Part shown: one piece after another, positions 744-18,836 of the stretch
Layout: every line of letters starts with the position of its first letter
How positions within the stretch are numbered: the stretch's first letter is position 1
Origin: a virus
DNA length: 20,145 nucleotides
Virus record (IMG/VR): IMGVR_UViG_3300034105_001732
Coordinates: 1 to 20,145 of that record
Reading direction: 5' to 3' (one strand)
Translations under genes and position numbers: made by a program
The notes under the pieces: model-generated
Seen by the model: the letters and a program-made list of their open reading frames with translations, nothing else
What the model was told of the DNA's origin: nothing
Databases searched by the model: none

Positions 744-767
744 GCTGCCCTCCATGCTCGTGGCCTG

Positions 768-815
768 TACCCCAAAAGTGTACAGTTGGCACGCCAACTG
801 CATAATTTGGGGGTA
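768..815. other. attP: Candidate phage attachment site attP (48-bp imperfect dyad)
   Basis: Seen directly: pairing position i with 1583-i gives 19 matches out of 23 between 768-790 and 793-815. There is a perfect inner arm (783-790 with 793-800), and outer arms TACCCC (768-773) and GGGGTA (810-815) also pair. The centre at 791-792 is AC, which is not its own complement, as directional serine integration requires. Established: attP sites of large serine integrases are roughly 50-bp imperfect dyads and often lie next to int. Inference: this is attP. It lies 25 bp upstream of the int start codon and no plausible gene crosses it. An operator is the main alternative. Confidence 0.6.
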
Positions 816-2553: not shown

Positions 2554-2820
2554 CTAGATGACGTGGAACACCCCGCAGTCGATCACGGGGACCTCGGGGA
2601 CGTCGTCGATCCTCGCGTACACGTGGTACGCGCCGGGATCCAGCGAGTCGACCATGACACCGATCTGCGCGCCCACGACGACCGGCGCGTCGAAGCCGTC
2701 TTCCTCGGGCCGCTCGCCGTCCTTGACGATCGCGAGGGTGACGTTCGCGGTGCGGACCTCGCCGTCGCTGGTGACGACGACGGGCTGGAACTCGACGGTC
2801 TCCCGTTGGTACAGGTTCAT
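2554..2820 (-). CDS. Small beta-rich phage protein, last gene of the late operon (88 aa)
   Basis: The ATG at 2818-2820 overlaps the stop of the repeat fibre gene (ATGA), so translation is probably coupled. The protein begins MNLYQRETVEFQPVVV and shows alternating beta-strand segments (EVRTANVTLAIVKDG, APVVVGAQIGVMVDS, GAYHVYARIDD, VIDCGVFHV), consistent with a single immunoglobulin-like or other beta-sandwich domain. No signal peptide or membrane segment is seen. Position suggests a virion accessory protein, perhaps attached to or assisting the neighbouring fibre. I do not recognise a named family. A strong terminator follows. Confidence 0.78.
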   Translation of the reverse strand: MNLYQRETVEFQPVVVTSDGEVRTANVTLAIVKDGERPEEDGFDAPVVVGAQIGVMVDSLDPGAYHVYARIDDVPEVPVIDCGVFHVI

Positions 2821-4595
2821 GTGAGTGTTCCCTTCCAATGCTTGGCGCCGAGCGTCCCGCTCCTGGCTGCCGGTGGGAGGAGCCGTCCCGTGGTCGCCTG
2901 GTCGGCGAGCCCGCCCGTGACGGTGATGTTGCGCCAGCGCCGCGCGCCGCTCAGGATCGTCGTGATCGACAGGTGCGCGTTGCCGGTGATCGCGACGGTC
3001 GCGGTCGCGGTGAGCGCGGTCGTGACCCGCATGATCGCGGCGCCGTTGGATCCGATGGTGACGGTGCGGGCGACGGTGATCGCCAGTGCCGCGCCGGTGG
3101 AGGTTCCGATGGTCGCGGTCGCGGTGAGGGTGAGGGTGATCGCCGTGTCGGTGTCGCCGACCTGCTGCGTCGAGCCCGTCGCGGTGACGGTGACGGTGAT
3201 CGGCGCGGCGGCCAGTGCGGTGACGCCGGGGACGCCGGTCGCGTCCAGGTCGACGGTGGTCGGCAGGGTCGATCCGGTGGAACGACCGACCGTCGATGTC
3301 GCGGCCCGCCCGGCGAACACGGGGGTGTCGGCGTCGGAGTCGAGGCCCGCTGCTCCGGTCGCGTCGAGTGTGGCGGTGGTCGGCAGGGTCGATCCGGTGG
3401 ACGTGCCGACGATGCCGGTCGCCGCGAGGGTGATCGCCGTGGGCAGGGTGGCGTCGCCGTTGGCGCCGAGGGTGGCCGTCGCGCCCAGGCTGACGGTCGA
3501 GGTCGTCGTGGCGTTGGACGCCATGCCGGTCGAGCCGGTCGCGCTCAACGTGACAGTGGTCGGCTGGGTGGCGGCGCCGGTGTAGCCGGTCGCGCCCGTC
3601 GCGGCGAGGGCGACGGTGACCGGGAGTGCGGCGGTCGTCGAGGTGCCGCGTGCCCCCGTCGCCGCGAGGGTGCCGGTGACGGCGAGGGCCGATGCGGACG
3701 CCCGCGTGTTCGCGCCGGTCGAGGTCCGGGTCGCGGTGATGGCGAGGGCCGAGGCGCTGGACGTGCCGACCGTTCCCGTGGCCGCGAGCGTGACGGTCTG
3801 GGCGAGCGTGGAGTTGCTCGATGTCCCGATCGTCTTGGTGCCCGCGAGGGTGACGGTCGAGGCGAGCGTCGAGTCGGACTTGCGCTGGTTCGCGCCGGTC
3901 GCTGCGAGGGTGACGGTGAGCAGGGAGGCGGCGTCCACGGCGATCGTGCCGCTGCCTGTCGCTGCGAGGGTCGTGGTGATGGCGAGGGCCGACCCGCTGG
4001 AGGTGCCGACTGTCCCGGTCGCCGTCAGGGTGACGGTCGAGGCGAGGGCCGAGTTGCTGCTCGGAGCGGTGGCGACGCCGGTCGCGGTCAGGGTGACGGT
4101 CTCGGCGAGCGTCGCGGCGCCGGTGTATCCGGCGTTGTAGGTGACGGTGACGTTCGCCCACCCGAAGTACTGGATCGAACTCGTGGTGTTCGCCTTTTTC
4201 GCGGTGAACCGGATCTTGAAGTCCCCGGACCGGATCTGCGCGAGGGTGACCGAGCCGAGGGTGACGTCGTCGGAGCCGGGGGTGGTGCGCTCGGTGAGGG
4301 TCGCCGGTGACCCGATCGCCGTTACGCCGTCGTACGCCTGCACCGTGGGGTTGTTCCACCTCGCAGCGTTCGCGACGTACTGCTGGACGTTGACGACGAC
4401 GGAAACGAGGTTGTCCGTGTCTTGGATGGTGCCGCCGAAGTCATAGCCGGTGACGTCGCCGACGTGGTCGCCGGTCGTCGTGGTCGTGAGCGTCCCGTAG
4501 GTCGTGGCGAGGCCGTCGTAGTTCGACGCTGTCGATGCGAACGCGGTGCCCGAGACGTTGGTCCAGCCCGCGCCGTCGTTAGCGCTGGTTGCCAT
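2817..4595 (-). CDS. Repeat-rich tail fibre or appendage protein (592 aa)
   Basis: Residues 1 to about 155 form a beta-rich domain of the lectin or jelly-roll kind seen in phage tail proteins (segments such as NLVSVVVNVQQYV and GDFKIRF, ending ANVTVTY). From about residue 161 to 550 there are about twenty tandem units of close to 20 residues, typically TLP.TVTLAATG..GTS.GS, very rich in Thr, Ala and Gly. A short basic C-terminal tail follows (ARRW, then KHWKGTLT). Such a regular repeat predicts a beta-solenoid or fibrous stalk. Its distance from the baseplate genes, beyond the lysis cassette, makes the exact role uncertain: side fibre, tail appendage or capsid decoration are all possible. The ATG at 4593-4595 has only a weak ribosome binding site (GGGA). 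Two other reading frames across the repeats are also open, an effect of the repeat and GC content. Confidence 0.85.
   Translation of the reverse strand: MATSANDGAGWTNVSGTAFASTASNYDGLATTYGTLTTTTTGDHVGDVTGYDFGGTIQDTDNLVSVVVNVQQYVANAARWNNPTVQAYDGVTAIGSPATLTERTTPGSDDVTLGSVTLAQIRSGDFKIRFTAKKANTTSSIQYFGWANVTVTYNAGYTGAATLAETVTLTATGVATAPSSNSALASTVTLTATGTVGTSSGSALAITTTLAATGSGTIAVDAASLLTVTLAATGANQRKSDSTLASTVTLAGTKTIGTSSNSTLAQTVTLAATGTVGTSSASALAITATRTSTGANTRASASALAVTGTLAATGARGTSTTAALPVTVALAATGATGYTGAATQPTTVTLSATGSTGMASNATTTSTVSLGATATLGANGDATLPTAITLAATGIVGTSTGSTLPTTATLDATGAAGLDSDADTPVFAGRAATSTVGRSTGSTLPTTVDLDATGVPGVTALAAAPITVTVTATGSTQQVGDTDTAITLTLTATATIGTSTGAALAITVARTVTIGSNGAAIMRVTTALTATATVAITGNAHLSITTILSGARRWRNITVTGGLADQATTGRLLPPAARSGTLGAKHWKGTLT
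2950..4115 (-). repeat. Degenerate 60-bp coding repeats, about 20 units
   Basis: On the plus strand, phrases like GGTCGCCGCGAGGGTGACGG recur about every 60 bp. Translated on the minus strand each unit is about 20 residues (18-21), with conserved TVTL and ATG motifs. Units have diverged in sequence while length is mostly kept, so expansion is not recent, apart from closer pairs such as those around GTSTGSTLPTT. Confidence 0.85.
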
Positions 4596-4613
4596 GGTCC
4601 CGGCCTGACGTCA

Positions 4614-4658
4614 GAGGGGGGTGACCGACTCGATGGATCGCCACGGCTCACCCCCCTC
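4614..4658 (-). repeat. Perfect 11-bp inverted repeat in the gap before the repeat fibre gene
   Basis: GAGGGGGGTGA at 4614-4624 pairs with TCACCCCCCTC at 4648-4658 around a 23-nt loop, and the loop ends can pair further (CCG with CGG, with one unpaired base). On the minus strand the upstream arm reads AAGGAGGGGGGTGA, which resembles a strong ribosome binding site, and it is masked if the hairpin forms. No U-tract follows. It could be an mRNA stabiliser, a weak terminator or a translational control element. Confidence 0.6.
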
Positions 4659-4673
4659 CTTGTTGGTCTCGGT

Positions 4674-5072
4674 CTATGCGGCGAGCGGCGCGATCGACAC
4701 TCCGCAGGTATTCAACGTGAACGTGTTGCCGGACACCCAGGCCTGCGGCGTCGTGAGCGCGACGGAGTAGAGGAAGTTGCCCGCCGAGACGTCGTCCCAT
4801 ACGGAGATGTGGCTGATCGTCTCGTTGGTCCCGCCGTTCGTCCAGACCGGGGCGGTGCCGTTGAGTGCGATGGCGCCACCGGATGCGGCGCCCTGCGTCA
4901 TCGCGACGCGGGTGGTGGATCCGGCGGCGGCGGCGGTCGCGCCCGATGCGCCGGGGTCGGCGGTGTGCAACTTGACGAAGATCCCCGCGACGACGGTGCG
5001 CGTGGCGCCCGACGCGCGGATGCAGTTGAGCCAAGCGTTCGCTGTGTTGACGGTCGAGACGCCTACGGTCAT
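4674..5072 (-). CDS. Phage tail or fibre-associated structural protein (132 aa)
   Basis: The protein begins MTVGVSTVNTANAWLNCIR, then has VKLHTADPGASGA (about residues 33-45) and later a SHISVWDD segment and GNFLYSVALT. This arrangement (N.WLN.I, KLHT.DPGA.G, SHIS.WD, GN.L.S..L) recurs in small structural proteins of phages of actinobacteria, usually called tail fibre or minor tail proteins; that comparison is from memory. It is beta-rich, without a membrane segment. The ATG at 5070-5072 overlaps the stop of the 31-aa frame (ATGA), and AAGGAG lies at proper spacing inside that frame. It probably works with the repeat fibre gene that follows. Confidence 0.82.
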   Translation of the reverse strand: MTVGVSTVNTANAWLNCIRASGATRTVVAGIFVKLHTADPGASGATAAAAGSTTRVAMTQGAASGGAIALNGTAPVWTNGGTNETISHISVWDDVSAGNFLYSVALTTPQAWVSGNTFTLNTCGVSIAPLAA

Positions 5073-5164
5073 GTCGATTCTCCTTCAGTATCAATGGTGT
5101 TGGTGGCGGTGCCGGGTCCGACGGTGCCGGACGCCTCGAAGACGATCTCGTATTTCGTGCTCAT
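5069..5164 (-). CDS. Very small hypothetical protein (31 aa)
   Basis: The frame runs from an ATG at 5162-5164 to TGA at 5069-5071 and overlaps both neighbours in ATGA fashion, the same coupling used across the operon. This is the main reason to think it is translated. The product starts MSTKYEIVFEASGTVGPG and is Thr- and Gly-rich, with no membrane segment or recognisable domain. It may be a small peptide of its own, or its translation may mainly serve to deliver ribosomes to the next start codon, whose AAGGAG site lies inside it. Confidence 0.55.
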   Translation of the reverse strand: MSTKYEIVFEASGTVGPGTATNTIDTEGEST

Positions 5165-5691
5165 GCGACGGTCCCATCTGCGTTGATCCGCATGCGTGCG
5201 CGGACGGTCTTGAGGTCGGTGACGGTGATGCCGGGCGCCACGTAGATGTGCATCGGATCCGACAGCCGGGAGTACGTCAGTGGGTAGTCGACGCCGGGTG
5301 ACTGGTCGCTCGCGCCCCACCCGAAGACGACTCGCCCATCGCCGGTGTGGAACCGGCGCAGGATCTGGCTGATCTGCGCCGCCTCGGATCGGCTCATGTG
5401 AGTGGGGAATCCGACCCTGCCGATCCGCAGGGTCCAATGCTCGAACGCCCAGCCGCAGTGGTCGGACATCGGCCCGCTGGTGGAGCCCCTCGGGTATCGG
5501 TAGTTATAGGACCCACTATCTGAAGTCCTGATCTGGCAGACCTGGTCGAGGAGCACGCTCGCGCGCAGCATGAGCGGCAGTGCCGCCCAGTGCGCTCGCA
5601 GGCTGACGGGCCTGCCGGGGACCCTGCGGGTCCGAAGTCGCGGGTCGTACGGTCGCAGCGCCGGATGGCCGCTCAATGTCGTTGCCATCAT
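5161..5691 (-). CDS. Putative endolysin: M15-like (D-Ala-D-Ala carboxypeptidase fold) peptidase (176 aa)
   Basis: The likely role is cleavage of peptide cross-links in host peptidoglycan at lysis. The support is an SDHCGWAFE segment (residues 76-84), close to the SxHxxGxAxD zinc-binding signature of M15 peptidases, and DPMH at 145-148, matching the closing histidine motif. Expected ligands would be His78, Glu84 in place of the usual Asp, and His148. The first motif is one residue shorter than normal. There is no cell-wall-binding domain and no signal peptide, which fits release through the holin encoded immediately upstream (5692-5916). Two adjacent ATGs (5689-5691 and 5686-5688) can serve as start behind GGAAAGGTGA. 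The alternative is a virion-associated or inactive M15 homologue. Confidence 0.65.
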   Translation of the reverse strand: MMATTLSGHPALRPYDPRLRTRRVPGRPVSLRAHWAALPLMLRASVLLDQVCQIRTSDSGSYNYRYPRGSTSGPMSDHCGWAFEHWTLRIGRVGFPTHMSRSEAAQISQILRRFHTGDGRVVFGWGASDQSPGVDYPLTYSRLSDPMHIYVAPGITVTDLKTVRARMRINADGTVA

Positions 5692-5916
5692 TCACCTTTC
5701 CGGCAGGAACGATGCGGACTCGGGGTCGCCGGTCTTCGTCGCGACGAGCGACATCAGCACGGACAGGAATGCGGCGAGCGCGCTGATCGACAGCGTCTGC
5801 ACCCAGTCAACATCAAGAATGCCCGTCACCGACCCGGTGAGCAGCGCGATGACGGACTGCGCTGCGGTGCGGATTGCACGCTCTCCGGCGTCCTTCCAGA
5901 ACTCGATCTCGAACAT
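5692..5916 (-). CDS. Holin, r1t-type (74 aa)
   Basis: This small protein should form the membrane lesion that releases the endolysin. It begins MFEIEFWKDAGERAIRTAAQ, an amphipathic N-terminal helix with the ERA.RT.AQ pattern typical of r1t-type holins. Two hydrophobic segments follow (SVIALLTGSVTGIL, about residues 21-34, and ISALAAFLSVLMSLVA, about 44-59), joined by DVDWVQTLS. The tail is short and polar. Length and layout fit the family. The ATG at 5914-5916 follows AAGGAGTGACC, a strong ribosome binding site. The endolysin gene begins directly after its stop codon. Confidence 0.85.
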   Translation of the reverse strand: MFEIEFWKDAGERAIRTAAQSVIALLTGSVTGILDVDWVQTLSISALAAFLSVLMSLVATKTGDPESASFLPER

Positions 5917-5918
5917 GG

Positions 5919-6041
5919 TCACTCCTTCGGTCGGCGGGTGCGGGTGCGGCGCTTGGGCAGCGGCCACCTGTATGCGGCCCATCGCAGGGCGATGGCGACG
6001 ATCGTCGCGACGACGATGCCGAGGATCTCCTCGAATGTCAT
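5919..6041 (-). CDS. Very small membrane protein with basic tail (40 aa)
   Basis: The frame starts at ATG 6039-6041, overlapping the upstream stop (ATGA). It encodes a single transmembrane segment (ILGIVVATIVAIALRWAAY, about residues 6-24) followed by an Arg/Lys-rich tail (LPKRRTRTRRPKE). A positive C-terminal tail implies that this end stays in the cytoplasm. Lying just before the holin and after another membrane protein, it could be a second holin component, an antiholin or a spanin-like accessory. None of these can be shown from sequence alone. Confidence 0.7.
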   Translation of the reverse strand: MTFEEILGIVVATIVAIALRWAAYRWPLPKRRTRTRRPKE

Positions 6042-6361
6042 GGCCGAGGTCGCGGGTACTCGATGCCGACGAGGTAGGTGCCGCCAGCGAGGACGGCCCA
6101 CGCGACGGCGATCATCGCGGACGTCGGCGATCCGACGATGACGATCGCGGCATAGGCGGCGTACGTCCACAGGGCGACGGACACGAGCATGGATGCGCGC
6201 ATGACCCTGTCCCGGTCGAGTGCCCACGCGGCGACCATGACCGCTGCGGTCGCGAGCGCGACCCATCCGAGGACGACGTAGTCGCCCTTCGCGAGCCATC
6301 CGGCGCCGAGCGACAGCGCCGCGATCGTGAGCGCGAGCGTCACGGGCCGGACGTCAGGCAT
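6038..6361 (-). CDS. Membrane protein with four predicted helices (107 aa)
   Basis: The ATG at 6359-6361 overlaps the end of the previous gene by 8 nt. Four hydrophobic stretches are visible: VTLALTIAALSLGAGWLA, VVLGWVALATAAVMVAAWAL, SMLVSVALWTYAAYAAIVIV and AMIAVAWAVLAGGTYLVGI. A charged loop (DRDRVMR) lies between the second and third. There is no signal peptide beyond the first helix and no catalytic motif. Position in the lysis cassette suggests a holin-like or lysis-timing role, with membrane-based superinfection immunity as an alternative. I do not recognise a family. Confidence 0.78.
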   Translation of the reverse strand: MPDVRPVTLALTIAALSLGAGWLAKGDYVVLGWVALATAAVMVAAWALDRDRVMRASMLVSVALWTYAAYAAIVIVGSPTSAMIAVAWAVLAGGTYLVGIEYPRPRP

Positions 6362-6614
6362 CGGGGTTCTGCCTGCGTGGTTCGCGGTCGCGTCCCCGTC
6401 CTCGCGGGACCGCATCAGCCGGGGGCAGCCCGAAGGCGGCGCGGGCCTCAGCCTCAGACTCAAACCACGACCACCCGGCGACGGGGTAGTCGTACGTGTC
6501 CTTCAGGTGCTTGTGCAACTCGAAGCCTGGCGCGCAGATCCTGTTCGCGGACTCCAGGTTGATGCCGTTCGCGCGGTAGAACCCACCGCCCTTCGTGCGG
6601 AGCCGGTCTGTCAT
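6354..6614 (-). CDS. Small hypothetical protein (86 aa)
   Basis: The preferred start is ATG 6612-6614, which overlaps the stop of the receptor-binding paralogue (ATGA); another ATG lies five codons upstream. The protein begins MTDRLRTKGGGFYRANGIN, has an aromatic-rich centre (DYPVAGWSWFESEAEARAAFGLP), and ends in a charged, probably disordered tail (RGRGRDREPRRQ). No membrane segment is seen. I do not recognise it. Coupling to the fibre gene suggests a fibre chaperone or small virion protein, but its place before three membrane proteins would also suit a lysis accessory. Confidence 0.72.
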   Translation of the reverse strand: MTDRLRTKGGGFYRANGINLESANRICAPGFELHKHLKDTYDYPVAGWSWFESEAEARAAFGLPPADAVPRGRGRDREPRRQNPDA

Positions 6615-7939
6615 GAGATCACCGTCCATCCCTTTGCGGTGGCGATTGCTGGGTTATCGGATGCGGCGCCATCGGTGTCATGAACGTCGACGCGGGTGTC
6701 GTGCGTCACTGAGCCGCCGCTCACGTAGGCGGTGCGCGGGTAGGCGCTCAGTGCCAGCGTGAATTGGTTGCTGGCAGGGACGGAGCGGATCTGTCCGCTG
6801 CCGTTGAAATTGGCCGGGCTGATCCCCGCGACCGTGACGTACTGGCCGGGGATCCATCCGTGGCTCGCCGTGGTCGTGAACGTCGCGACGATCGGATCCG
6901 ACGTCCCGACAGTGGCCGTCGAGATGGTCCGGTTCACGTCGCTGATCGTCGCGAGGTCCGTGTAGATCGTGTTCAGTTCCGACGCCGTCAGTTCCAGGTC
7001 CGAAAGATCCAGGCATATGCGCGAGCCCGTGGCGGCATACGACTGGAGTGATACCCACAATTCCGGCATGAAATAGCGGCCCTCGACCTTGGAGAGGTTC
7101 AGCGCGCCAACGGTTTTCACGCCCCCGCAGCCGCTGAACATTTCGGTGCAGTTCATCGCGGTCGTCGTGTTCATCGTGAATGCGGGGACGTGCTGCAACG
7201 AGAAGCAGTTGTCGAACATGTACGAGGCGTCCGTGACCGATGCGAGGTTGAACGCGGGGACGGACAGGAGGGACCCGCAATCCTCGAACATGGAGGAGGT
7301 GTCCGTCGCGGCGCCGGTGTAGAGGTTCACGACCTGGCGCAGGCAGCCCAGCATGTGGAATGCGCTGAAGAAGTCGGTGATGGCGTTGTTGCCGACGTAG
7401 TCGAACCGCTCGATGTCCTCGCACCATCCGTCCTCGGAGGTGATGAGACTGTTCACGGTCAGGTTGGTGACGCTGGCACCGGCCATGCGGACGTCGAGCC
7501 AGCGATTGTGCGACGTGTAGATCGCGCTCGGGTGCGCGGCATCGAAATGCACGTGCGTCATCGTCTGCGCGGCCTGCATGGTGATCGTCACCACGACCTG
7601 CCGGTAGCCGTGCGTTGTCAGCGTCGATGCGGGGATGTCGGCCCACGTGTAGGCGTGGGATCCGATGGTCCCCGACGAATAGTTCGCCGGGGCCGACCCG
7701 TCCCCCCAGTCGACCGTGTACGCGCCCCAAATCTTCACCGCCAGCCGGTTCACCCCGGTCGAACGGATAGCGACGATCCCGACGATCTTCTGCTCGCCCG
7801 CAACGACAGTCGGCAGCGGCAGCCAATCGGAGGGCCGCTGATAGCCCGACACCGGAGTGGATGCTGTCCCGCCGGTCGCGATGCTCATCCAGTCCTGCAC
7901 CTCGGACGCTGGACGAACTGCGGCGCCGAACCTGCTCAT
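6611..7939 (-). CDS. Receptor-binding/tail fibre protein with PKD-like domain and BspA-type leucine-rich repeats, copy 2 (442 aa)
   Basis: The start MSRFGAAVRP at 7939 overlaps the stop of its paralogue (ATGA). In order it shows: an N-terminal region of about 60 residues nearly identical to the paralogue (SGYQRPSDWLPLPTVVAGEQ), likely the virion anchor; a PKD-like domain (YTVDWGDGSAPAN then SHAYTW, about residues 74-100); BspA-type repeats with MF..C and L.SVPAF motifs (about residues 190-280); and a C-terminal beta domain (HGWIPGQYVTVAGISP, SNQFTLALS) ending ATAKGWTVIS. PKD and BspA-type repeats are extracellular binding modules, so a host-recognition role is likely. It differs from the paralogue most at about residues 140-170 and 285-310. 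This is inferred from sequence pattern, not from a known homologue. Confidence 0.83.
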   Translation of the reverse strand: MSRFGAAVRPASEVQDWMSIATGGTASTPVSGYQRPSDWLPLPTVVAGEQKIVGIVAIRSTGVNRLAVKIWGAYTVDWGDGSAPANYSSGTIGSHAYTWADIPASTLTTHGYRQVVVTITMQAAQTMTHVHFDAAHPSAIYTSHNRWLDVRMAGASVTNLTVNSLITSEDGWCEDIERFDYVGNNAITDFFSAFHMLGCLRQVVNLYTGAATDTSSMFEDCGSLLSVPAFNLASVTDASYMFDNCFSLQHVPAFTMNTTTAMNCTEMFSGCGGVKTVGALNLSKVEGRYFMPELWVSLQSYAATGSRICLDLSDLELTASELNTIYTDLATISDVNRTISTATVGTSDPIVATFTTTASHGWIPGQYVTVAGISPANFNGSGQIRSVPASNQFTLALSAYPRTAYVSGGSVTHDTRVDVHDTDGAASDNPAIATAKGWTVIS

Positions 7940-9252
7940 GTGTACACCGCCCACCCCTTGGCCGTCGCGATCGACGGCGTGTCCGAGGCGATGCCCTCAG
8001 TACCCGACACGTCGACCTCCGTGTCGTGGTCGACGGTGCCGCCGCTCACGTAGTCCGACGCGGGCTGACCACTGAGAGTGAAGGTGAACTGATTGAGGGC
8101 GGGAACCGTCCTGATCTCCATCCCCACGTTGAAGTGCACCGGGGTGACGCCGGACACCATTACCCGCTTGCCGGGCACCCACCCATGATTCACCGTCGTC
8201 GTGTACGTCGCGACGAACGTGTCCCAGTTGTACGTGATCGTGGAGATCGTCCGGCTCACGTCCGCGATCGTCGCGAGGTTCGTGTAGACCGTGTTCAGTT
8301 CGCTTCCGGTGAGTTCGGCATCCATGAGGTTCACCTGAATGCTGGAATTGGTTGCTGCGTAACGCTCAAGTGGCCGCGTGTCGAGAAACCGATAGCCCTT
8401 GACCTTGAGCAGGTTCAGCGCGCCGAAATCGCGGACGTTGTCGCATCCGCTAAACATCAGATCGCAGTCCATCGTCGTCGTGGTGTTCATCGTGAAATCG
8501 GGGATGACGCGAAGCGATTTGCAGCCCCTGAACATCCAGTAAGCGTCGGTGACCTGCGACAGGTCGAAGGCCGGGACCGACAGCAGCGCGCCGCAATTCA
8601 AGAACATTCCAGACGTGTCGGTCGCGGCGCCGGTGTAGAGGTTCACGACCTGGCGCAGTTTCCCGCACCCCTCGAAGGTGCTCCAGAAGTTCGTGATCGC
8701 GTTCGTGCCGACGTAGTCGAACCGCTCGACCTCCCGCGGGTAGCCCGACTCATACGTCGGCCCGATGAACTCGAACGTGCTGACGGAGGCACCGGCCATC
8801 CGGATGTCACGCCAGCCCGACATCGTCTTGATCGAACTGGGGTGCCGCTCGTCGAAGTGGACGGCGGTCATCGTCTGGCCACCCTGCATCGTGATCGACA
8901 CGATGACCTGCCGGTAGCCGTCGGTTGTCAGCGTCGATGCGGGGATGTCGGCCCACGTGTAGGCATGCGACGCGGTCGCCCCTGTTGCGAAGTTGGCGGG
9001 CGCCGACCCGTCGCCCCAGTCGACCGTGTATGCGCCGCTGATCTTGATGGCGAGCCGGTTCGGGCCGACCGGCCTGACGGCGACCATCCCGACGATCTTC
9101 TGCTCGCCCGCAACGACAGTCGGCAGCGGCAGCCAATCGGAGGGCCGCTGATAGCCCGACACCGGAGCCTCGCCCGTGGTGCCGCCGGACGAGATGCTCA
9201 TCCAGTCCTGAACCTCGGACGACGGTCGTACCTGGGCGCCGAACCTGCTCAT
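7936..9252 (-). CDS. Receptor-binding/tail fibre protein with PKD-like domain and BspA-type leucine-rich repeats, copy 1 (438 aa)
   Basis: This is the upstream member of the tandem pair. It starts MSRFGAQVRPSSEVQDW at ATG 9250-9252, 2 nt after the preceding stop codon. It carries the same order of parts as the second copy: conserved N-terminal anchor, PKD-like domain (YTVDWGDGS, then SHAYTW), BspA-type repeats with MFLNCGALLSVPAF, MFRGCKSL and MFSGCDNV (about residues 210-280), and a C-terminal beta domain (HGWVPGKRVMVSGVTP, LNQFTFTLS). It ends ATAKGWAVYT. Repeats of this kind bind surface ligands in bacterial adhesins. Gene order just after the baseplate and short fibre genes supports a distal tail location. 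Confidence 0.85.
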   Translation of the reverse strand: MSRFGAQVRPSSEVQDWMSISSGGTTGEAPVSGYQRPSDWLPLPTVVAGEQKIVGMVAVRPVGPNRLAIKISGAYTVDWGDGSAPANFATGATASHAYTWADIPASTLTTDGYRQVIVSITMQGGQTMTAVHFDERHPSSIKTMSGWRDIRMAGASVSTFEFIGPTYESGYPREVERFDYVGTNAITNFWSTFEGCGKLRQVVNLYTGAATDTSGMFLNCGALLSVPAFDLSQVTDAYWMFRGCKSLRVIPDFTMNTTTTMDCDLMFSGCDNVRDFGALNLLKVKGYRFLDTRPLERYAATNSSIQVNLMDAELTGSELNTVYTNLATIADVSRTISTITYNWDTFVATYTTTVNHGWVPGKRVMVSGVTPVHFNVGMEIRTVPALNQFTFTLSGQPASDYVSGGTVDHDTEVDVSGTEGIASDTPSIATAKGWAVYT

Positions 9253-9254
9253 CG

Positions 9255-9614
9255 CTACGCAATCTCGTTGACGTAGCCGAAGATGCTCACCTTGTTCGTC
9301 GTGCCCGCGTATGCCTTCACGATGAGCGGTGTCGCGTTGCCCTTGAGGAGGATGCCGGGAGCGATGAGGACGAGTCCCTGCGCGGCGGCGAGCGTCACCT
9401 TGATGTTGTCGGCGAGGGCGGTGACGCCGCCCCACTCAACGTTGAGCGTGTACGCAGTCGCGTCGGCATTGGATGCGTAGAGCCAGATCTCCTGAATCGT
9501 CGCCGGGGTCGACGACGCCGTGTGGATGGTCGTGCCGGGCGTCGCCGTCGCAACGACGAGGATGCCCCGACCATCGGTCGAGCCGCTCAGGATTTTCTTG
9601 GTGAACGTTGCCAT
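9255..9614 (-). CDS. Small virion protein, probably tail-fibre associated (119 aa)
   Basis: It begins MATFTKKILSGSTDGRGILV behind GAGGAGCACTCG, a good ribosome binding site. The rest is a succession of beta strands (TIQEIWLYASN, AYTLNVEWGG, NIKVTLAAAQGLVLIAPG, KVSIFGYVNEIA), which predicts one compact beta-sandwich. Small proteins with this opening and fold occur among structural genes of phages infecting actinobacteria, as far as I recall. It lies between a short fibre and the leucine-rich receptor-binding proteins, so it may be an adaptor or a decoration protein. No membrane segment is seen. Confidence 0.8.
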   Translation of the reverse strand: MATFTKKILSGSTDGRGILVVATATPGTTIHTASSTPATIQEIWLYASNADATAYTLNVEWGGVTALADNIKVTLAAAQGLVLIAPGILLKGNATPLIVKAYAGTTNKVSIFGYVNEIA

Positions 9615-9624
9615 CGAGTGCTCC

Positions 9625-10101
9625 TCAGGTGAAGACGGATGTGGCGATCAGGTGTCCCGCCTCGTCGCGGGCGTAGATGTCGGCGAGGGTCGCGAGTTGG
9701 CTCGTGTCCGCGATCCCGTGGATCGACGTCGAGTCGCTCGCGTGGTCGGACAGGTTCGTCGCCGTGGCGAGCGCCGACGTGTCCGCGATCCCATGCACCG
9801 CAGTCGTATCGGATGCGTGGTCGGACAGATTCGTCGTCGTCGCATACGACCCGAGGTCGCTCGCGATCGTCAGGTCGACCCACGTCGAGCCGTTGCATCG
9901 CTGCAACTTCGAGGATGTCGTGTTCCATACGATGCGGCCCGCCCACTTCTGCGCGCCGCTCAGGCCGTCGATGGTCGACTGCGACAGCGACGTGATGCCG
10001 GGGCTGAGGTCGATGAAGTCGGCGAGGATCTGCATGTCGCCCGGCACGTCCACGTCGTCGGCGTCGGCGGGGTACGGATATCCCTTGGTGCTGCTCGGCA
10101 T
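9625..10101 (-). CDS. Short tail fibre protein (158 aa)
   Basis: The N-terminus MPSSTKGYPYPADADDVDVPGDM resembles openings of phage fibre proteins that attach to a baseplate. A GRIVWNTTSSKLQRCNGSTWV segment (about residues 55-75) is a common fibre element. Residues 87-111 and 112-136 form two near-identical 25-residue repeats with NLSDHAS and HGIADTS. The ATG at 10099-10101 follows TAGGAGGCTGGA, a strong ribosome binding site. Position directly after the gpI-like gene matches the P2 order J, I, then fibre. It is short for a fibre, so it may form a stub that carries the proteins encoded next. Confidence 0.82.
   Translation of the reverse strand: MPSSTKGYPYPADADDVDVPGDMQILADFIDLSPGITSLSQSTIDGLSGAQKWAGRIVWNTTSSKLQRCNGSTWVDLTIASDLGSYATTTNLSDHASDTTAVHGIADTSALATATNLSDHASDSTSIHGIADTSQLATLADIYARDEAGHLIATSVFT
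9694..9843 (-). repeat. Tandem 75-bp coding repeat, two units
   Basis: Two adjacent 25-codon units encode NLSDHAS followed by HGIADTS, with only a few substitutions between them (for example TTAVHG against STSIHG). They sit in the C-terminal half of the short fibre protein and suggest copy-number variation in a trimeric shaft. Confidence 0.8.
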
Positions 10102-10110
10102 TCCAGCCTC

Positions 10111-10746
10111 CTACGGTGAGTCGTACTGATTCAGGTCGGTGTACGTGTCGAACGTCGCGGCGAGTTCGCCGTAGGTCGCGAAGTCTGCGGCGATCTCCAA
10201 ATAGATCGAGCCCTCCGTCACGGTCAGGTCGAGCGTCGCACCGGCTGGCTTCTCCGACATGGCAGCGGCGAGGGTCGCTGCCTCGTCAGGTGTCTGCGAC
10301 GTCGTCGTGATCACGTTGATCAAATAGGGGTCGGTGCCGGTGACGTTGACGTAGATCTTCACCGACTGCCCGCCGGTGAGGGTCCGCTTGACGGCGTCCC
10401 GCATCGCCCCGATCGAGCCGCGCCGCTGCGTCGTGATCGCGGCGGTGACTGCCGCTCGGACGTACGGGGCGCCGATGCTCGTGGTGTCGATCCCGACGAG
10501 CCACCCGAGCCATCCGAGCCAATTGGCATTCGGGTCCGATGACCTCGGTGCCATCGCCGCGTTGGCGATCTCGCACGTCCCCGACACGGACGTGTTCGGG
10601 TCCGCTGAGTCGAGGATGCGGAGCGCCGGATCCAGTTGCGCCGCAATGGATCCCAGCCACTTGTACAGCGTGCCGTTGTCGCCGTCTGCGGCGGTGACGT
10701 AGTCGGGGAGCCGGTCCCACGTCATGTCGAGGCCCGGCGACGTCAT
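10111..10746 (-). CDS. Baseplate/tail protein, gpI-like (211 aa)
   Basis: The ATG at 10744-10746 overlaps the stop of the baseplate J gene (ATGA). The protein begins MTSPGLDMTWDRLPDYVTAAD and has a helical region with repeated Trp (NWLGWLGWLVGID, about residues 74-86), then QRRGSIGAMRDAVKRTLTGGQSV, a pattern common in gpI and YmfQ-type baseplate proteins in which a helix-rich N-terminal part precedes a small beta domain. The C-terminal part (LDLTVTEGSIYLEIAADFATY) is beta-rich. In P2-like phages gpI sits at the baseplate edge, between J and the fibre. The family call rests on order plus these features. Confidence 0.82.
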   Translation of the reverse strand: MTSPGLDMTWDRLPDYVTAADGDNGTLYKWLGSIAAQLDPALRILDSADPNTSVSGTCEIANAAMAPRSSDPNANWLGWLGWLVGIDTTSIGAPYVRAAVTAAITTQRRGSIGAMRDAVKRTLTGGQSVKIYVNVTGTDPYLINVITTTSQTPDEAATLAAAMSEKPAGATLDLTVTEGSIYLEIAADFATYGELAATFDTYTDLNQYDSP

Positions 10747-11846
10747 GCGACGTTCACCGTGATCGTGCCGATTTGAACGAGTTCGTCGACATCGACGGCC
10801 ACAGTGCCGGACGGGGTGGTCACGCCGTCGGTGTAGTCGACGCCTGGAAGTTGGTCGATGACGGAGATGATCTGCGCTGGCAGGATGTCCTCGCCCCACG
10901 CCCACGTGTCCGTCGACAGGTACGCGGTGAGCGCGGCCTCGACGGCAGCGGCGATGTCCTCGCTCGCGTAGCCGTCGAGTTTCACGACGTCGACCTCGAC
11001 GTCCTGGGTGACGATGACGGCTGGCTCGACGTGGACGGTGAGCATCATGCTGCTCATCGCCTGCATCGCGGACTGGAGTTCCGACCGAACCTCGACCGGG
11101 ACCTGCGCGCCGCGACCGTAGAGGTAGATGGTGATGTGGCCGAGGTCGAGGCCGGGCGTGCCGCCGGGCTCGAACACGTCGATCGACGTCGCCCGCAGCA
11201 CGCGAGTGTCCTCAAGGCAGTACGCCACGAAGTGGACCGGCAGCACGAGGCTTGACGTGACGCGCGCCAGAACCGTCGCGGCACGGTCGAAATACGCCGT
11301 GTCGTCCTCTGCGTCGGTGCCGCCGGACAGCCCCGTCGACACCGCCGCGCTCACGGCGTACGGCACGAGGTCGATCATGTCGAGCGACGTCCCGGTCGCG
11401 ATCGCATTCGCCGCCGATCCGGCATCGACGGCGACGACGTCGACCACCGCTGTCGACGCCGAGGTGACGGTCGTGTCTGCGGTCGTGACGATCGTGATGC
11501 CCGTGCTCGGGTCCTGCATCTGCGAACCCGCCGGGATGAGCAGGCTGCGCGCAGTGTCGAAGGTGATCGTCACCTGCCCGATCGCGGCGTCGCCGAGCCC
11601 CCGCTCGACGCCGTAGAGCGCGAGCACTGCCTGGAGGACGACCGGCGGGATCCGGTTGAGTGCGTAGACCGCGTCGGACACGGCAAGGCAGAGTGCCTCC
11701 ATGAGGACGACCTCGACGTTGCCGTTGCGTGCCACCCATGTCGGCAGCGCCGCCTGCGCCTGCGCGACGGCGGCGTCGAAGATCGCCTGCGGATCCCGGT
11801 CGTCGGGGGTGATGTCGAGATAGGTCAAGTTCAGGTCTTGCGGCAT
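10743..11846 (-). CDS. Baseplate J-like protein (367 aa)
   Basis: This forms the outer wedge of the baseplate and is expected to rearrange when the tail contracts. It begins MPQDLNLTYLDITPDDRDPQ, has ALPTWVARNGNVEVVLMEAL (about residues 34-53), and carries the characteristic segment VTITFDTARSLLIPAGSQMQ (about 92-111) followed by GLSGGTDAEDDTAYFDRA (about 172-189). The latter is the hallmark of baseplate J/gp47 proteins, in which GG.D.E.D..Y..R precedes the central domain. Length is in the usual range for such proteins. The ATG is separated from the gp25-like stop by 2 nt. It probably assembles with the gp25-like and gpI-like products encoded next to it. Confidence 0.93.
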   Translation of the reverse strand: MPQDLNLTYLDITPDDRDPQAIFDAAVAQAQAALPTWVARNGNVEVVLMEALCLAVSDAVYALNRIPPVVLQAVLALYGVERGLGDAAIGQVTITFDTARSLLIPAGSQMQDPSTGITIVTTADTTVTSASTAVVDVVAVDAGSAANAIATGTSLDMIDLVPYAVSAAVSTGLSGGTDAEDDTAYFDRAATVLARVTSSLVLPVHFVAYCLEDTRVLRATSIDVFEPGGTPGLDLGHITIYLYGRGAQVPVEVRSELQSAMQAMSSMMLTVHVEPAVIVTQDVEVDVVKLDGYASEDIAAAVEAALTAYLSTDTWAWGEDILPAQIISVIDQLPGVDYTDGVTTPSGTVAVDVDELVQIGTITVNVA

Positions 11847-11848
11847 GG

Positions 11849-12148
11849 TCAGTTCCTTCCGGCCCAGGTCGCGCGCACGCGCGCGGCAACACTGCCGTCC
11901 ATGTCGCGGACGATGTCGATCGACTGCACGCGGACGTCCGGCTCGTTCACTTCAATCCAGCCTGCGAGTTCGACCTCGTGGACGTGCGCGCCGATGGGGT
12001 CGGGGATCCCCCACTGCGGGGCGAGTCCTCGCTCGGCCTGGATGACGGACAGGACGCTCGCCGCGATCTCGGATGCGAGCCGGTCGCTGCCCTCGGCGAC
12101 GAGTGCGACCCGGTCGCCCGCGAGCCGGAATGGGTGGGAGATGGGCAT
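11849..12148 (-). CDS. Baseplate wedge protein, gp25/gpW-like (99 aa)
   Basis: The start is ATG 12146-12148, sharing one base with the upstream stop (TGATG). The protein begins MPISHPFRLAGDRVALVAEG and includes ASEIAASVLSVIQAERGLAP (about residues 29-48), resembling the helix and RG region in which gp25-like proteins bind the sheath and wedge. It continues with GIPDPIGA and VRVQSIDIVRDMDGSVAARV. At 99 residues it is close to P2 gpW (115) and T4 gp25 (132). Position between the spike and J is the classic order V, W, J. Some members have a lysozyme-like fold, but no enzymatic role is expected. Confidence 0.85.
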   Translation of the reverse strand: MPISHPFRLAGDRVALVAEGSDRLASEIAASVLSVIQAERGLAPQWGIPDPIGAHVHEVELAGWIEVNEPDVRVQSIDIVRDMDGSVAARVRATWAGRN

Positions 12149-12453
12149 CAGGTGCTCACCCCCGCACGTATGACTCCGAGGACCACGAAGTCCTCCCGGT
12201 TGAGGTCTGACACGAGGATCTCGTCTCCGGCCTCGACGAGGTCCGCGAGCCACTGCGCCGCCGGGACGGTGTGCGTGTGGGTGCCGTGGTCGCCGACCGC
12301 CGTGCCCGACGTCGTCGCCTGGTCGATGCGGACGAAGTTCGCGAGCAGCGGGCATGGCCCGAACTCGATTCCCGGCCAACGACTTTCGGCCTTGAACCAC
12401 ACGCCCTCAGTCGAAGCCCGAGTGACGACAGCGCGATAGCAGTCGCCTCTCAT
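12148..12453 (-). CDS. Short baseplate spike (gpV/gp45-like OB-fold) protein (101 aa)
   Basis: The ATG at 12451-12453 overlaps the hub stop (ATGA). The product begins MRGDCYRAVVTRASTEGVWF, then IEFGPCPLL (about residues 29-37), and ends with GDEILVSDLNREDFVVLGVI (about residues 78-97). This strand pattern fits the OB-fold of gpV/gp45-type spikes, where a GD.VLV strand and a VVLG strand close the barrel. Between them is a His-rich loop, GDHGTHTHT (residues 54-62). P2 gpV is about 211 residues and carries a beta-helix tip; here that helix is absent, so this may be only the OB collar. Role is assigned from position between hub and gp25. Confidence 0.72.
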   Translation of the reverse strand: MRGDCYRAVVTRASTEGVWFKAESRWPGIEFGPCPLLANFVRIDQATTSGTAVGDHGTHTHTVPAAQWLADLVEAGDEILVSDLNREDFVVLGVIRAGVST

Positions 12454-13304
12454 TCGGTGCCCTCCCGCCCGGTGGACTTCACGACGATCTTCTTCGGCTG
12501 CAACGCGGTGATCTCGACGGGCGTGACACCGTCCGGTCGGCGCACGACGGAGTCGACGAGCCACGTCCCGTCGTACCTTCCGAGGCCGGTGACGCGGAGC
12601 CGCTGCCAGGGCCGGATCATCTGCCCAGTGGGGTACGGCATCGTGAGATCCAATGTCGCGCTGGTGATGTCGTCGTCCTCGGTCTGCGTGGCGGTGGCGG
12701 TGAGCATGTCCGTCTGCGGGTTCTTTGCCCAGGTCGCGGCGTACGTCGGGAATCCCGGCACGCCGGTCTTCCACGCCCAATGCCTGGAGCCGAACACGAA
12801 GGCGCTGCCCCATTGGGTCCACGAGTAGCCGAGTTGGGATGCGAGATCGCCGATGATGTCGAGGGTCGTCTGGTCGTTGCCCTGCGCGATCGTCCCGCCC
12901 TTGGCGGTCGGCTGGGCGATGCACCTGCCGCCTGCCTGCTGCACGCGGGCGGTGACCCATTCGTGGGGCGCGACCTTCTGCTCGGCGCTCACCTTGATCG
13001 TGCGCCGCAACTTGCGGGCGAGGAGCGACCGGCACCGAAATGTCCATGCGACGTTGGCGTTCTGGAACTCCGTGTCGACGCCGCTGATGAACCACGGGGA
13101 TCCGTTGAACGTGACCTGGACGCCGAGCCTGCCGAGGTTCGTCGCCGCGAGCCGACCGCCGGTGTCGTGGGACACGATCGCGAGTTCGGCGACCTGCTCC
13201 GCCGACCACGTCGTCGTGATCTCGGACACCAACTCGTCCAGTCCGTACGCCCAGTTGACGCCAGAGATGACGAGGTCGCCGAGGTCGATCCTTCGGATCG
13301 TCAC
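12450..13304 (-). CDS. Baseplate hub protein, gpD/gp27-like (284 aa)
   Basis: The hub forms the trimeric base of the tail, to which the spike attaches. The protein begins MTIRRIDLGDLVISGVNWAY and has a SWAITE-like early beta domain, a segment QVTFNGSPWFISGVDTEF (about residues 62-79), then QTTLDIIGDLASQLGYSW (about 143-160), a typical helix-turn region found in gpD-like hubs. A later QRLRVTGLGRYDGTWLVDSV segment (about residues 235-254) is the strand pattern seen near the C-terminus of such proteins, where the mature hub domain meets the spike. Length is somewhat below P2 gpD (387). The ATG overlaps the upstream stop (ATGA). Confidence 0.85.
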   Translation of the reverse strand: MTIRRIDLGDLVISGVNWAYGLDELVSEITTTWSAEQVAELAIVSHDTGGRLAATNLGRLGVQVTFNGSPWFISGVDTEFQNANVAWTFRCRSLLARKLRRTIKVSAEQKVAPHEWVTARVQQAGGRCIAQPTAKGGTIAQGNDQTTLDIIGDLASQLGYSWTQWGSAFVFGSRHWAWKTGVPGFPTYAATWAKNPQTDMLTATATQTEDDDITSATLDLTMPYPTGQMIRPWQRLRVTGLGRYDGTWLVDSVVRRPDGVTPVEITALQPKKIVVKSTGREGTE

Positions 13305-13492
13305 GGCGTCGTCGCGGGCTGCCGCCGCAGCAGATCCGGCCTGCGGGAACGTGCGAGTTGCGCGGCACGCACTTGCGGCGACCGGCGTGCCGGGGACGTC
13401 GCGTCGATCTCCGCGAGTCCGGCGGGCGCGACCGGCGCCGGGACACCGTTCGCGGACGTGTCGGCGAACGTGTCGTCTCGTCCCTGGCTCAT
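13301..13492 (-). CDS. Small Arg/Pro/Ala-rich protein between tail-end protein and hub (63 aa)
   Basis: It starts at ATG 13490-13492 and stops at TGA 13301-13303, overlapping both neighbours by ATGA. This double coupling is the best evidence that it is a real gene. The product begins MSQGRDDTFADTSANGVPAP, and its second half is strongly basic (RSPQVRAAQLARSRRPDLLRRQP). It looks mostly disordered. In P2 the tail gene X, encoding a small LysM-like protein, lies in this module, but I see no LysM pattern here. It could be a small tail-tip or tube-end component, or an assembly factor. Confidence 0.65.
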   Translation of the reverse strand: MSQGRDDTFADTSANGVPAPVAPAGLAEIDATSPARRSPQVRAAQLARSRRPDLLRRQPATTP

Positions 13493-13953
13493 CGCTTCGC
13501 CACCGGGCCGCGCGGCATCGCCGCGAGCGACTCCTGAATGAGGACCATCTGGACCTCCGCCCGCGACACCTCGCCGCTGCGGGTCCACTCGATCTCCGTG
13601 TAGGAGAACTCGGTGATCGCCCAGGACGTGGTCGACGGGATGGATCCGAGCAGGACGGTGACGCTCGTGCCCGCCGACGCTGCGGTGCGGATGAGCGACA
13701 GTGACGCGGAGCATCCGACGTCGGGGTTCGCCCGTTCGTTGCCGAGCGCAGTGAGCATGAAGCCGAGCGAAAGCGTTGGCAGTGCTAGGGATTCCTGCAC
13801 GAGGAGCGGGACCTTGCCGGGCCTCGGCAACTGGGTCCATGTCGGCGCGAGGGTGGAGTAGGCGATCTCGTCGGGCCACCACGGGAACACGATCTCCCCG
13901 CCCGTCTTGAACGTCATCTTCGCGAACCGCGCGGGGTCGAGGGTGACGCTCAT
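13489..13953 (-). CDS. Tail-end/baseplate protein, gpU- or gp53/XkdP-like by position (154 aa)
   Basis: The start at ATG 13951-13953 shares one base with the tape-measure stop (TGATG). The protein begins MSVTLDPARFAKMTFKTGGE and contains PWWPDEIAYSTLAPTWTQLP (about residues 24-43). Its C-terminal half, ITEFSYTEIEWTRSGEVSRAEVQM (about residues 112-135), has the alternating strand pattern seen in phage tail-end proteins following the tape measure, where W....G...R..V....L.ES is common. It is beta-rich and soluble, with no LysM seen. Inference: it links the tape measure and tube to the hub. Confidence 0.72.
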   Translation of the reverse strand: MSVTLDPARFAKMTFKTGGEIVFPWWPDEIAYSTLAPTWTQLPRPGKVPLLVQESLALPTLSLGFMLTALGNERANPDVGCSASLSLIRTAASAGTSVTVLLGSIPSTTSWAITEFSYTEIEWTRSGEVSRAEVQMVLIQESLAAMPRGPVAKR

Positions 13954-16430
13954 CAGCCGCGCTCCCGCTTGATCCGGTCGGCGCGGCGCAGCGCGGTGAG
14001 GACGGCACGCTCGACGTCGACGGTCTGCGCCGGGTTGTTGACGACGACCGATCCGATCGCTGGGCCGGATTGTGCTTGCACTGCAACGGGTTGCGCGACC
14101 GGGACGCGTGCGGCGTCCCTCGACGCGAGGCGCGTGTACAGGCTGGGGTCGACCATCTTGTCGGCGCGGTTGATGCTCGACAGCGTGTCGATGCCGAGGG
14201 CGCGGACGGCTGCGGCGCGGACGACGAACTCGCCGTTGGACAGCATCGCCGGAATCGAGTCCGACGTCCCGGTGCCCGGCCCCCACACGGGTCCCCCTTG
14301 TGCCTTGCCATCTTCCGGTCTGCCGCCTGTCCAGGGAACGTAGCCGGGGGTCATGGTCGGAGTGGTCGGCAAGGGTGGACCCATCGGCACGTATCCGCCC
14401 TTGATCCAAATCTCTGTCGCCCGCTTGATCGCGAGTTGGGCGTCGAGTTCCTCCAGTTTCGCCAGGACCATGTCGATGGGGTCCTGGTATTGCTTCTTGA
14501 TCGTGTCGGGCATGTCGGCTTTCGTGATTGCTGCGGTCATCTCCTTGCCCGAAGCCCTGACCCATTTCGACTGGAACTTGGGATCCTTGTACAGGCGGGC
14601 GACAGTGTTCGACGCCTTGATCATCTCGTCGTAGTTCGTCTGGGACGGGTCCTTCTCGAACGCGGCGAGTTTCGCTCTATAGGCGCGCTTCGCGTTGTTG
14701 CGATCCAGTTTGCGCTCGACTGCGTCCAGGGTGCCGAGAAGTCCGTTCTGCGCTGCCGCGACCCCGTCCGTCGCCTGCTTCAGGCGGTCCTGGGCGACGG
14801 CGAATGAGTTCGCTGCCGCTGCCCCCTCCTTCGACGCCTCGATTCCTGCCTTCATCGCCTTGGTCGCGTTGTCAAGCCCCTCGCGCTCCCCGTCCATCGC
14901 GATCTCGACCGTGGCCAGCGCGTTGCCGAGTCCCGTGGTCTTGCCGTTCGCGAAGCCGTAGGCCGCCGAGAGTTCGTTCATCCTGCCGCGCAGAACGGTC
15001 GCCGCCTCGCCGCCATCGACGGTCGCCTTGGTGATGTCGGAGAGCGTTATGCCGTGTAAGGCCAGAAGTTTCAGGGTCTCGGGGGTGATCACGTCCTGGA
15101 GCGCCTTCGCCGTGTCGGTGTACGTCTGCATAGTCGGCTTGAACGTCTCCGGGTCGAGCGTTGCCTTGAACCGCTCGGTCGCCTCGGCGGCTTTCGCCTG
15201 CGCGTTCGCGTATCCGATGACGGCGACGGTGAGGACGCCGAGTGCGATCGTCCACGGGGTGAGCAGTGATCCCGCTACCGCGAACCCCGTCCGCAGCCCC
15301 TTAAAGCGTCCATCCGCGACGGTCGCGGCAGCCCCCGTCTCCCGGATCAGCGTCTTGACGGCGAGGATCTTCGGCGCGAGCAGGACGAGCGCTGCCCCCA
15401 CCGCCGCGATCATGATGCCCGTCGACCGCATCGGCGCGGGGATCTCGTTGAACACGCCGAACAACAACTTGAGAACCGTGAGGGCTTCCTTCGCGGCGGG
15501 CATGAACGACTCGCCGATCGAGGCCTGGAGGTTCTGCCATTCGGCGGCGACACGCCGGGACAGGTTTGCGTAGTCGTCTTGGGTCCTGTTGAAGTCGCCT
15601 TGCTGGTCGGTGCTCTGACTCAGGATCTCCTGATACGCGGCGAGCACTTTGATGTTCTGCGGCAACGTCTTTTCGACGGTGTCGGTGAGCCCCTGGTTGA
15701 ACGCAGCCTGCGACAGCGATGCGGCGTCGAGGAGGATGTTCGCGCGTCGGAGCGGCTCGTACTCGCCGCGCAGCGCGGCGGAAAGCGCGACGATCGCCTC
15801 CTCTGGGGCCATGTTGTTGAACGATGAGATGTCGGCGGCGAGCCCGGAGAGTTCCAGCGCGAAGTCGGACAGTTCGGCGCCGCTGAGCCCTGCGGCCTTC
15901 CCGAGGCTCGCGAAGTTCGCGGCGGCGCCGAGTGCCTGCGACTTCGACTGGCCGAACCTGTCGGCTGCGGTGTCGGCGTAGTCGATGACGGCCTGGGATG
16001 CCTCGCCGAAGATGACCTTCGTCTTGTTCAGGGACTCGGTGACGTCGGATGCTGCCGTGATCGTCTTCTTCGCGAACATCGCCAGCGCGATGCCCGCGCC
16101 TGCGAACAGGAGCGGGTTGGAGAGCCCGCCGAGCGCGCGGTTGACTTGCTGGCCCATCCGCGTGAAGGCGTTGCCGTGCGCCCTTGTCTGGGCGGTCGCC
16201 TTTTTCTGCGTGCCGGTCAGTTTCGCGACCTCTGTGCGGAGAGCGACGATGCGCTGCTCGGCGCGCTTGATCTCGTCGGATCCCTTGCCTGTCTTCATCC
16301 ATTCGGCGTTGCTCTTGGCGAGTTCCTTCTCCAGCCCTCGGATCTCGGACCTCATGGCGTTGACTGATGCCTTCACGCCCGCGTCCTCGGCACTGACCTT
16401 GATCGTCAACTGGTCTGCGTATCCGGCCAT
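13953..16430 (-). CDS. Tail tape measure protein (825 aa)
   Basis: It sets the tail length and is ejected with DNA. The start at ATG 16428-16430 follows GGGGGTGACCAG, a good ribosome binding site; the frame is open further but has no better start. Residues 1-85 are a coiled-coil helix rich in Glu, Lys and Arg. Hydrophobic segments follow (LLFAGAGIALAMFA near residue 106; APMRSTGIMIAAVGAALVLLA near 345; TPWTIALGVLTVAVIGYA near 398), which could cross the host membrane. The PhageMin_Tail-like core is about residues 110-330. Near the C-terminus is GPGTGTSDSIPAMLSNGEFV, a signature of tape measure proteins. By the known rule of about 0.15 nm per residue, the tail would be roughly 120 nm long. Confidence 0.95.
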   Translation of the reverse strand: MAGYADQLTIKVSAEDAGVKASVNAMRSEIRGLEKELAKSNAEWMKTGKGSDEIKRAEQRIVALRTEVAKLTGTQKKATAQTRAHGNAFTRMGQQVNRALGGLSNPLLFAGAGIALAMFAKKTITAASDVTESLNKTKVIFGEASQAVIDYADTAADRFGQSKSQALGAAANFASLGKAAGLSGAELSDFALELSGLAADISSFNNMAPEEAIVALSAALRGEYEPLRRANILLDAASLSQAAFNQGLTDTVEKTLPQNIKVLAAYQEILSQSTDQQGDFNRTQDDYANLSRRVAAEWQNLQASIGESFMPAAKEALTVLKLLFGVFNEIPAPMRSTGIMIAAVGAALVLLAPKILAVKTLIRETGAAATVADGRFKGLRTGFAVAGSLLTPWTIALGVLTVAVIGYANAQAKAAEATERFKATLDPETFKPTMQTYTDTAKALQDVITPETLKLLALHGITLSDITKATVDGGEAATVLRGRMNELSAAYGFANGKTTGLGNALATVEIAMDGEREGLDNATKAMKAGIEASKEGAAAANSFAVAQDRLKQATDGVAAAQNGLLGTLDAVERKLDRNNAKRAYRAKLAAFEKDPSQTNYDEMIKASNTVARLYKDPKFQSKWVRASGKEMTAAITKADMPDTIKKQYQDPIDMVLAKLEELDAQLAIKRATEIWIKGGYVPMGPPLPTTPTMTPGYVPWTGGRPEDGKAQGGPVWGPGTGTSDSIPAMLSNGEFVVRAAAVRALGIDTLSSINRADKMVDPSLYTRLASRDAARVPVAQPVAVQAQSGPAIGSVVVNNPAQTVDVERAVLTALRRADRIKRERG

Positions 16431-16434
16431 CTGG

Positions 16435-16623
16435 TCACCCCCTGCCTTCGACGTCCCTGAGTGCGGCGTCGTACGCCGCGATGGCGATTTGCTGGTCCTC
16501 AATTGGCCGTTCGAGGAGTGACAGCGGGTCGACGTGGAACATGCGCCCGTATCTGGCGGCGGTCACGATCCAGGGGTGATGGCTCAGGCCGTCCGCGTAG
16601 GGTCGTCGACCACCTCGGCGTCG
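16435..16623 (-). CDS. Second tail assembly chaperone frame, expected to be made by -1 frameshift
   Basis: This frame is open from the codon after TGA 16624-16626 to TGA 16435-16437. It lies in the -1 frame relative to the first chaperone and overlaps its end. Its readable part continues PYADGLSHHPWIVTAARYG and ends with DDAALRDVEG-type helix (AIAAYDAALRDVEGRG). No good start codon is seen; the only ATG is internal. This matches the gpG/gpGT pattern, in which a small fraction of ribosomes shift to give a longer chaperone. The shift must occur between 16584 and 16623. A CCC/CCT slip at 16599-16602 is a candidate and would give a fusion of about 228 residues. Confidence 0.75.
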   Translation of the reverse strand, partial: RRRGGRRPYADGLSHHPWIVTAARYGRMFHVDPLSLLERPIEDQQIAIAAYDAALRDVEGRG

Positions 16624-17524: not shown

Positions 17525-17536
17525 TGCGATTCCTTC

Positions 17537-18703: not shown

Positions 18704-18707
18704 GTTG

Positions 18708-18836
18708 CTACTCCTTCATTTCTGGCTCGGGCGCGGCGGCAGGTTCCTGCTTGGCGCGGGGCGTCTTCATCGCGGGGGTAGTTGCGGGGGGCTCGGGCGG
18801 CGGTGCCGCGTGGACGATGCTGGTGCGGGATCTCAT
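18708..18836 (-). CDS. Very small Pro/Ala-rich protein between neck and sheath genes (42 aa)
   Basis: It begins at ATG 18834-18836, overlapping the upstream stop (ATGA), and stops at TAG 18708-18710, 4 nt before the sheath start. Its last codons contain the AAGGAG that serves the sheath start. The product begins MRSRTSIVHAAPPPEPPATT and continues with PAMKTPRAKQEPAAAPEPE. It looks disordered and has no membrane segment. A role as a flexible linker protein of the tail neck is possible; a translational coupler for the sheath is as likely. Confidence 0.6.
   Translation of the reverse strand: MRSRTSIVHAAPPPEPPATTPAMKTPRAKQEPAAAPEPEMKE

Follow-up and report, generated by a model that had tools for sequence, protein, structure and literature searches.

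A 48-bp dyad upstream of a large serine integrase gene as the very probable intact attP of an uncultured phage

A 48-bp dyad lies just upstream of a large serine integrase gene (int) in the window analysed here, which is the entire IMG/VR virus record IMGVR_UViG_3300034105_001732 of 20,145 bp, a linear fragment ending inside int. Is this dyad the attP of the adjoining integrase, and has the DNA around it been integrated? It is very likely that the dyad at positions 768-815 is the intact attP of that enzyme, a reading adopted mostly because of relatives of the integrase.

The dyad and the integrase gene beside it

The letters of positions 768-815 are TACCCCAAAAGTGTACAGTTGGC-AC-GCCAACTGCATAATTTGGGGGTA, two half-sites of 23 bp flanking a 2-nt centre. 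The arms pair at 19 of 23 positions about this AC (GT on the int strand). All of the inner eight positions are paired and so are all of the outer six (TACCCC/GGGGTA), while the mismatches fall at positions 9, 11, 13 and 17 counted from the centre. The recount agreed with the preliminary description, which had given the same number of pairs, the AC centre and the inner 8-bp and outer TACCCC/GGGGTA arms. Among dyads of 23-bp arm length this was the best in the 20,145-bp window, with the runner-up reaching 17 pairs. None of 2000 dinucleotide shuffles of 701-900 scored 19 (the maximum was 16), and the naive expected number of such dyads in the window is about 0.001.

The gene beside the dyad occupies 1-743 on the minus strand and encodes the N-terminal 247 aa of a large serine integrase. 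The protein matched Resolvase PF00239 with an E value of 1.3e-14 and the integrase family phrog_95 with 4e-35. Its N-terminal catalytic domain is of the resolvase type and carries RVS, in which R20 and S22 are invariant in the alignments. Part of its recombinase domain also aligns with relatives before the contig edge cuts the gene, a truncation that the preliminary description did not mention; the C-terminal recombinase, zinc-ribbon and coiled-coil domains of such an enzyme would be encoded at least partly past that edge. The likely start is the ATG at 743-741, preceded by a GGAGGG ribosome-binding site read from the sequence at 748-753 (minus strand). The gap between the dyad and int is then 24 bp (744-767); with the in-frame ATG at 755 as the start it would be 12 bp. 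A distance of 25 bp had been given earlier; it holds to within one base and the exact value is 24 bp.

The dyad was compared with sites of known systems. The attP of Bxb1 is likewise 48 bp long, with an asymmetric 2-nt centre, partly symmetric arms and symmetric outer flanks at positions 18-24 (PMC3642061). Its sequence differs, and the Bxb1 site is experimentally proven whereas that of the window is read from sequence. In the complex of LI integrase with an A118-family (Listeria) attP, the dimer contacts about 50 bp and the zinc domain reads a motif at half-site positions 16-24 (PMC3783163). The window dyad pairs in this zone, at positions 16 and 18-23. The A118-family site has another sequence and another host group, and its structure was solved, whereas the window site is known from its sequence. 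When 14 sites were aligned on their centres, pairing peaked at position 3 and at positions 19-23 (0.86-0.93); these sites were partly picked for symmetry, which biases the overall level, but the places of the peaks are informative. The outer peak coincides with the zinc-domain zone of the known attP sites. The proposal that size and symmetry fit the attP of a large serine integrase, a site of roughly 48-50 bp with partly symmetric half-sites and an asymmetric central dinucleotide, was therefore borne out by the 48 bp, the 19 pairs, the AC centre, the paired outer flanks and the adjoining integrase gene.

Related integrases, their dyads and their junctions

Profile scans for relatives of the integrase gave 17 and then 21 viral contigs, together with 80 bacterial-genome loci. 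The closest relative was L017, with 59% identity over a fragment, and others reached about 50% over longer stretches. A profile search of genome contigs with the integrase returned relatives at 38-51% identity, and named phages were more distant (best about 35%). In the integrase tree the window integrase is a long, unplaced branch. Therefore, what is carried over from the relatives is carried over by family and not by close kinship.

Dyads directly before int were also found in several viral copies and in the Streptomyces phages Celia and Yosif. The serine integrases of these two phages are about 35% identical to that of the window, and their dyads pair at 17 of 23 positions with the centre 42-43 bp before int. 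The dyad sequences differ from that of the window, and the attP status of the Celia and Yosif sites is likewise putative. The 110 bp upstream of int were tested against shuffles, 300 for viral copies and 100 for genomic copies. The window dyad obtained P 0.003. Among the other viral or phage copies a dyad before int was detected in 9/17 at P<=0.007 and in 11/17 at P<=0.03; no clear dyad was seen in the viral relatives L103, L104, L008 and L015. In bacterial genomes, where the int starts were picked by rule, it was detected in 1/78 at P<=0.05; a single element contributes many near-identical copies to these 78, so that there are clearly fewer independent cases. Across the integrase family, most of the clear viral cases carry a strong dyad before int, and bacterial-genome copies almost never do.

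Junctions of integrated relatives indicate where such dyads are broken. In the viral contig L014 the dyad before int reads CTAGGTCGGTATCTCCCTGTAGGC-GA-TCCGACATGTAGACGGTAACCTATCG and is weaker, at 14/23. L013, from an isolate genome, has the int-side half in common with L014 (GATCCGACATGTAGACGGTAACCTATCG), but its other half is replaced by the reading frame of a comEA gene, encoding SLBB and helix-hairpin-helix domains, which enters from the left (GAGGTCAACGGCATCGGA). The integrases of L013 and L014 are sisters in the tree. Junctions in comEA like that of L013 are also present at L059, L063, L068, L073, L087, L090 and L091. In two Streptomyces genomes, G001 (for L090) and G002 (for L091), both ends of the element were located within comEA. 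The far ends are 16.8 kb (G001) and 16.1 kb (G002) away, where the missing end of comEA resumes with GDRRFSDLRNLVRP and a stop. The element halves joined give a rebuilt attP of GCTAGATACCCATAGAACACTCGGC-GA-TCCGAGATGTCAATGCTAATCTACG, a 15/23 dyad, with the right edge of its centre 29 bp before int. The bacterial halves joined give a rebuilt attB that reads as comEA without interruption and has 5/23 pairs. For L013, a search with the expected arm did not locate the opposite end.

The rebuilt sites of G001 and G002 and the pair L013 and L014 show that the attP of this integrase family is the dyad just upstream of int, with crossover on its central dinucleotide. The check suggested in the preliminary description, a comparison with prophages carrying related integrases, thus put their breakpoints on the central two nucleotides of a dyad in the corresponding place. 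The central claim of that description, an intact attP, gains support from these breakpoints and from dyads that are kept in many viral copies and absent from bacterial-genome copies. In the window, the int-proximal half-site (768-790) was assigned from its place relative to int and by analogy with L013, L090 and L091. By analogy with G001/L090 and G002/L091 the crossover is predicted at the central dinucleotide (791-792), and the int-distal half-site (793-815) corresponds to the attR of G001 and G002. The comEA-targeting elements (L013/L014, L090/G001, L091/G002) belong to the same integrase family as the window integrase, at about 40-54% identity over matched stretches, and also carry, upstream of int, a dyad whose 2-nt centre is 29 bp away from the start of the gene. 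However, their centre is GA rather than GT on the int strand, and their arms differ. Since the tree leaves the window integrase unplaced, the comEA target is not carried over to it.

The DNA-uptake gene comEA is a recurrent target of the integrase family (L013, L059, L063, L068, L073, L087, L090 and L091), with insertions in genomes of Streptomyces, Nonomuraea, Streptosporangium and a member of the Pseudonocardiales. No relevant paper on comEA as a serine integrase target was found in the openly accessible literature. Another branch of the family (L061, L064, L081, L084, L094, L096 and L100) appears to use Walker A (P-loop) codons as its insertion site, with a conserved GTCTTGCC-like sequence at the junction just upstream of int. 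In most of L023-L058 a near-identical integrase is preceded by TAGCCGAGGTTCTGTAAACGCACCTACCTCTC and has many different flanks across actinobacterial genera; this element appears to insert at many sites in a transposon-like manner.

Integration state and other readings of the dyad

Beyond the dyad, away from int, come small plus-strand ORFs at 871-1068, 1163-1456 and 1769-2122. The first had no relatives in the viral contig collection searched, and the last matched DUF3846 and phrog_3777. Tail genes follow on the minus strand, encoding baseplate J (10743-11846), a tape-measure-like protein (13953-16502) and a tail sheath (17537-18703). The sheath has distant relatives (about 34%) in phages of Arthrobacter and Gordonia, and on this basis an actinobacterial host is probable. 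A sister contig, L117, shares 91-94% identity with most of 3637-20145 (98% for baseplate J), and stops within a repetitive tail gene, short of int. That gene, at 2817-4595, encodes a tail-region protein of degenerate ATLTATGT-like repeats, and the end of L117 inside it is perhaps an assembly break. Two adjacent paralogous proteins at 6611-7954 and 7936-9276 resemble BspA-type leucine-rich repeats; L117 lacks about 2.8 kb between 6363 and 9154, roughly one such copy.

No bacterial junction was seen beside the dyad in the whole window, and phage genes continue for 19 kb beyond it. Because the dyad is unbroken and is followed by phage genes, the contig very probably derives from unintegrated phage DNA. 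This agrees with the earlier argument that an intact site would mean unintegrated DNA, since phage sequence extends from the dyad as far as the tail genes. A prophage attL or attR that is symmetric by chance was weighed in this connection, as the contig is cut inside int and the other side of int is unseen. However, the continuing phage genes, the match of the sister contig and the lack of such symmetry at the junctions of bacterial-genome copies make it extremely unlikely. An RNA element, for example a terminator or a leader hairpin before int, deserves just as little credence. Folding is indeed stronger than in shuffles for both strands (z -3.7 and -3.1), but every DNA dyad folds as RNA. The terminator and RNA-family readings were rejected, as no terminator-like site lies inside the dyad and no Rfam family matched.

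The dyad sits in a divergent intergenic region, where it could mainly be a transcriptional operator through which a regulator controls minus-strand int and the small plus-strand genes that begin at 871. It overlaps a promoter-like match on the plus strand, TGTACA-16-CATAAT (779-806), and GTACAGTT at 780-787 recurs inverted as AACTGTAC at 839-846, 51 bp away, possibly as regulator sites. However, the 48-bp length, the symmetry up to position 23 and the non-palindromic 2-nt centre fit attP better, the dyads of relatives at the same place are split by integration, and no regulator gene was identified; an operator as the main role is very improbable. An operator role in addition to attP is possible. 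The fuller proposal is an attP that doubles as operator for int and the early genes diverging from it; integration would then split the operator and rewire expression. This is considered unlikely.

Several results were counted against the attP reading itself. They are the promoter-like overlap, the weak dyad of L014, the viral relatives with no clear dyad, and the failure to find an integrated copy of the phage, an attB or a relative with the same att in the collections searched. Exact and N-masked half-site searches of the viral contig collection gave no matches, nor did a half-site search of 395 genomes from a single class, allowing <=3 mismatches, or a single-sequence search of genome contigs with the integrase. 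Against the same 395 genomes the best identity of the integrase was 50%. The att sequence of 768-815 was found in no close relative in the collections searched.

Proposed recombination and significance

With the dyad taken as attP, an integrase dimer would cover 768-815 with one subunit on each half-site. The recombinase domain would read the inner 12 bp or so and the zinc domain the outer TACCCC/GGGGTA. The site would pair with a shorter bacterial attB, both would be cut around the central dinucleotide (AC/GT), and the half-sites would be swapped. The 768-790 half would then stay by int and the 793-815 half would move to the opposite end of the prophage. What the window shows is DNA before such an exchange. 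We infer the binding, the exact crossover bases and the activity of the window integrase.

The site at 768-815 is an ordinary, well-formed example of a well-known type, and what is new is its sequence. It adds the putative serine integrase attP of an uncultured phage that probably infects actinobacteria, and no sequence in the collections searched resembles it. It is a possible orthogonal recombination site, once the complete integrase and the attB have been identified. Since the dyad marks most of the clear viral cases and almost none of the bacterial-genome copies, a strong dyad before int in this integrase family can help to read the integration state from contigs.
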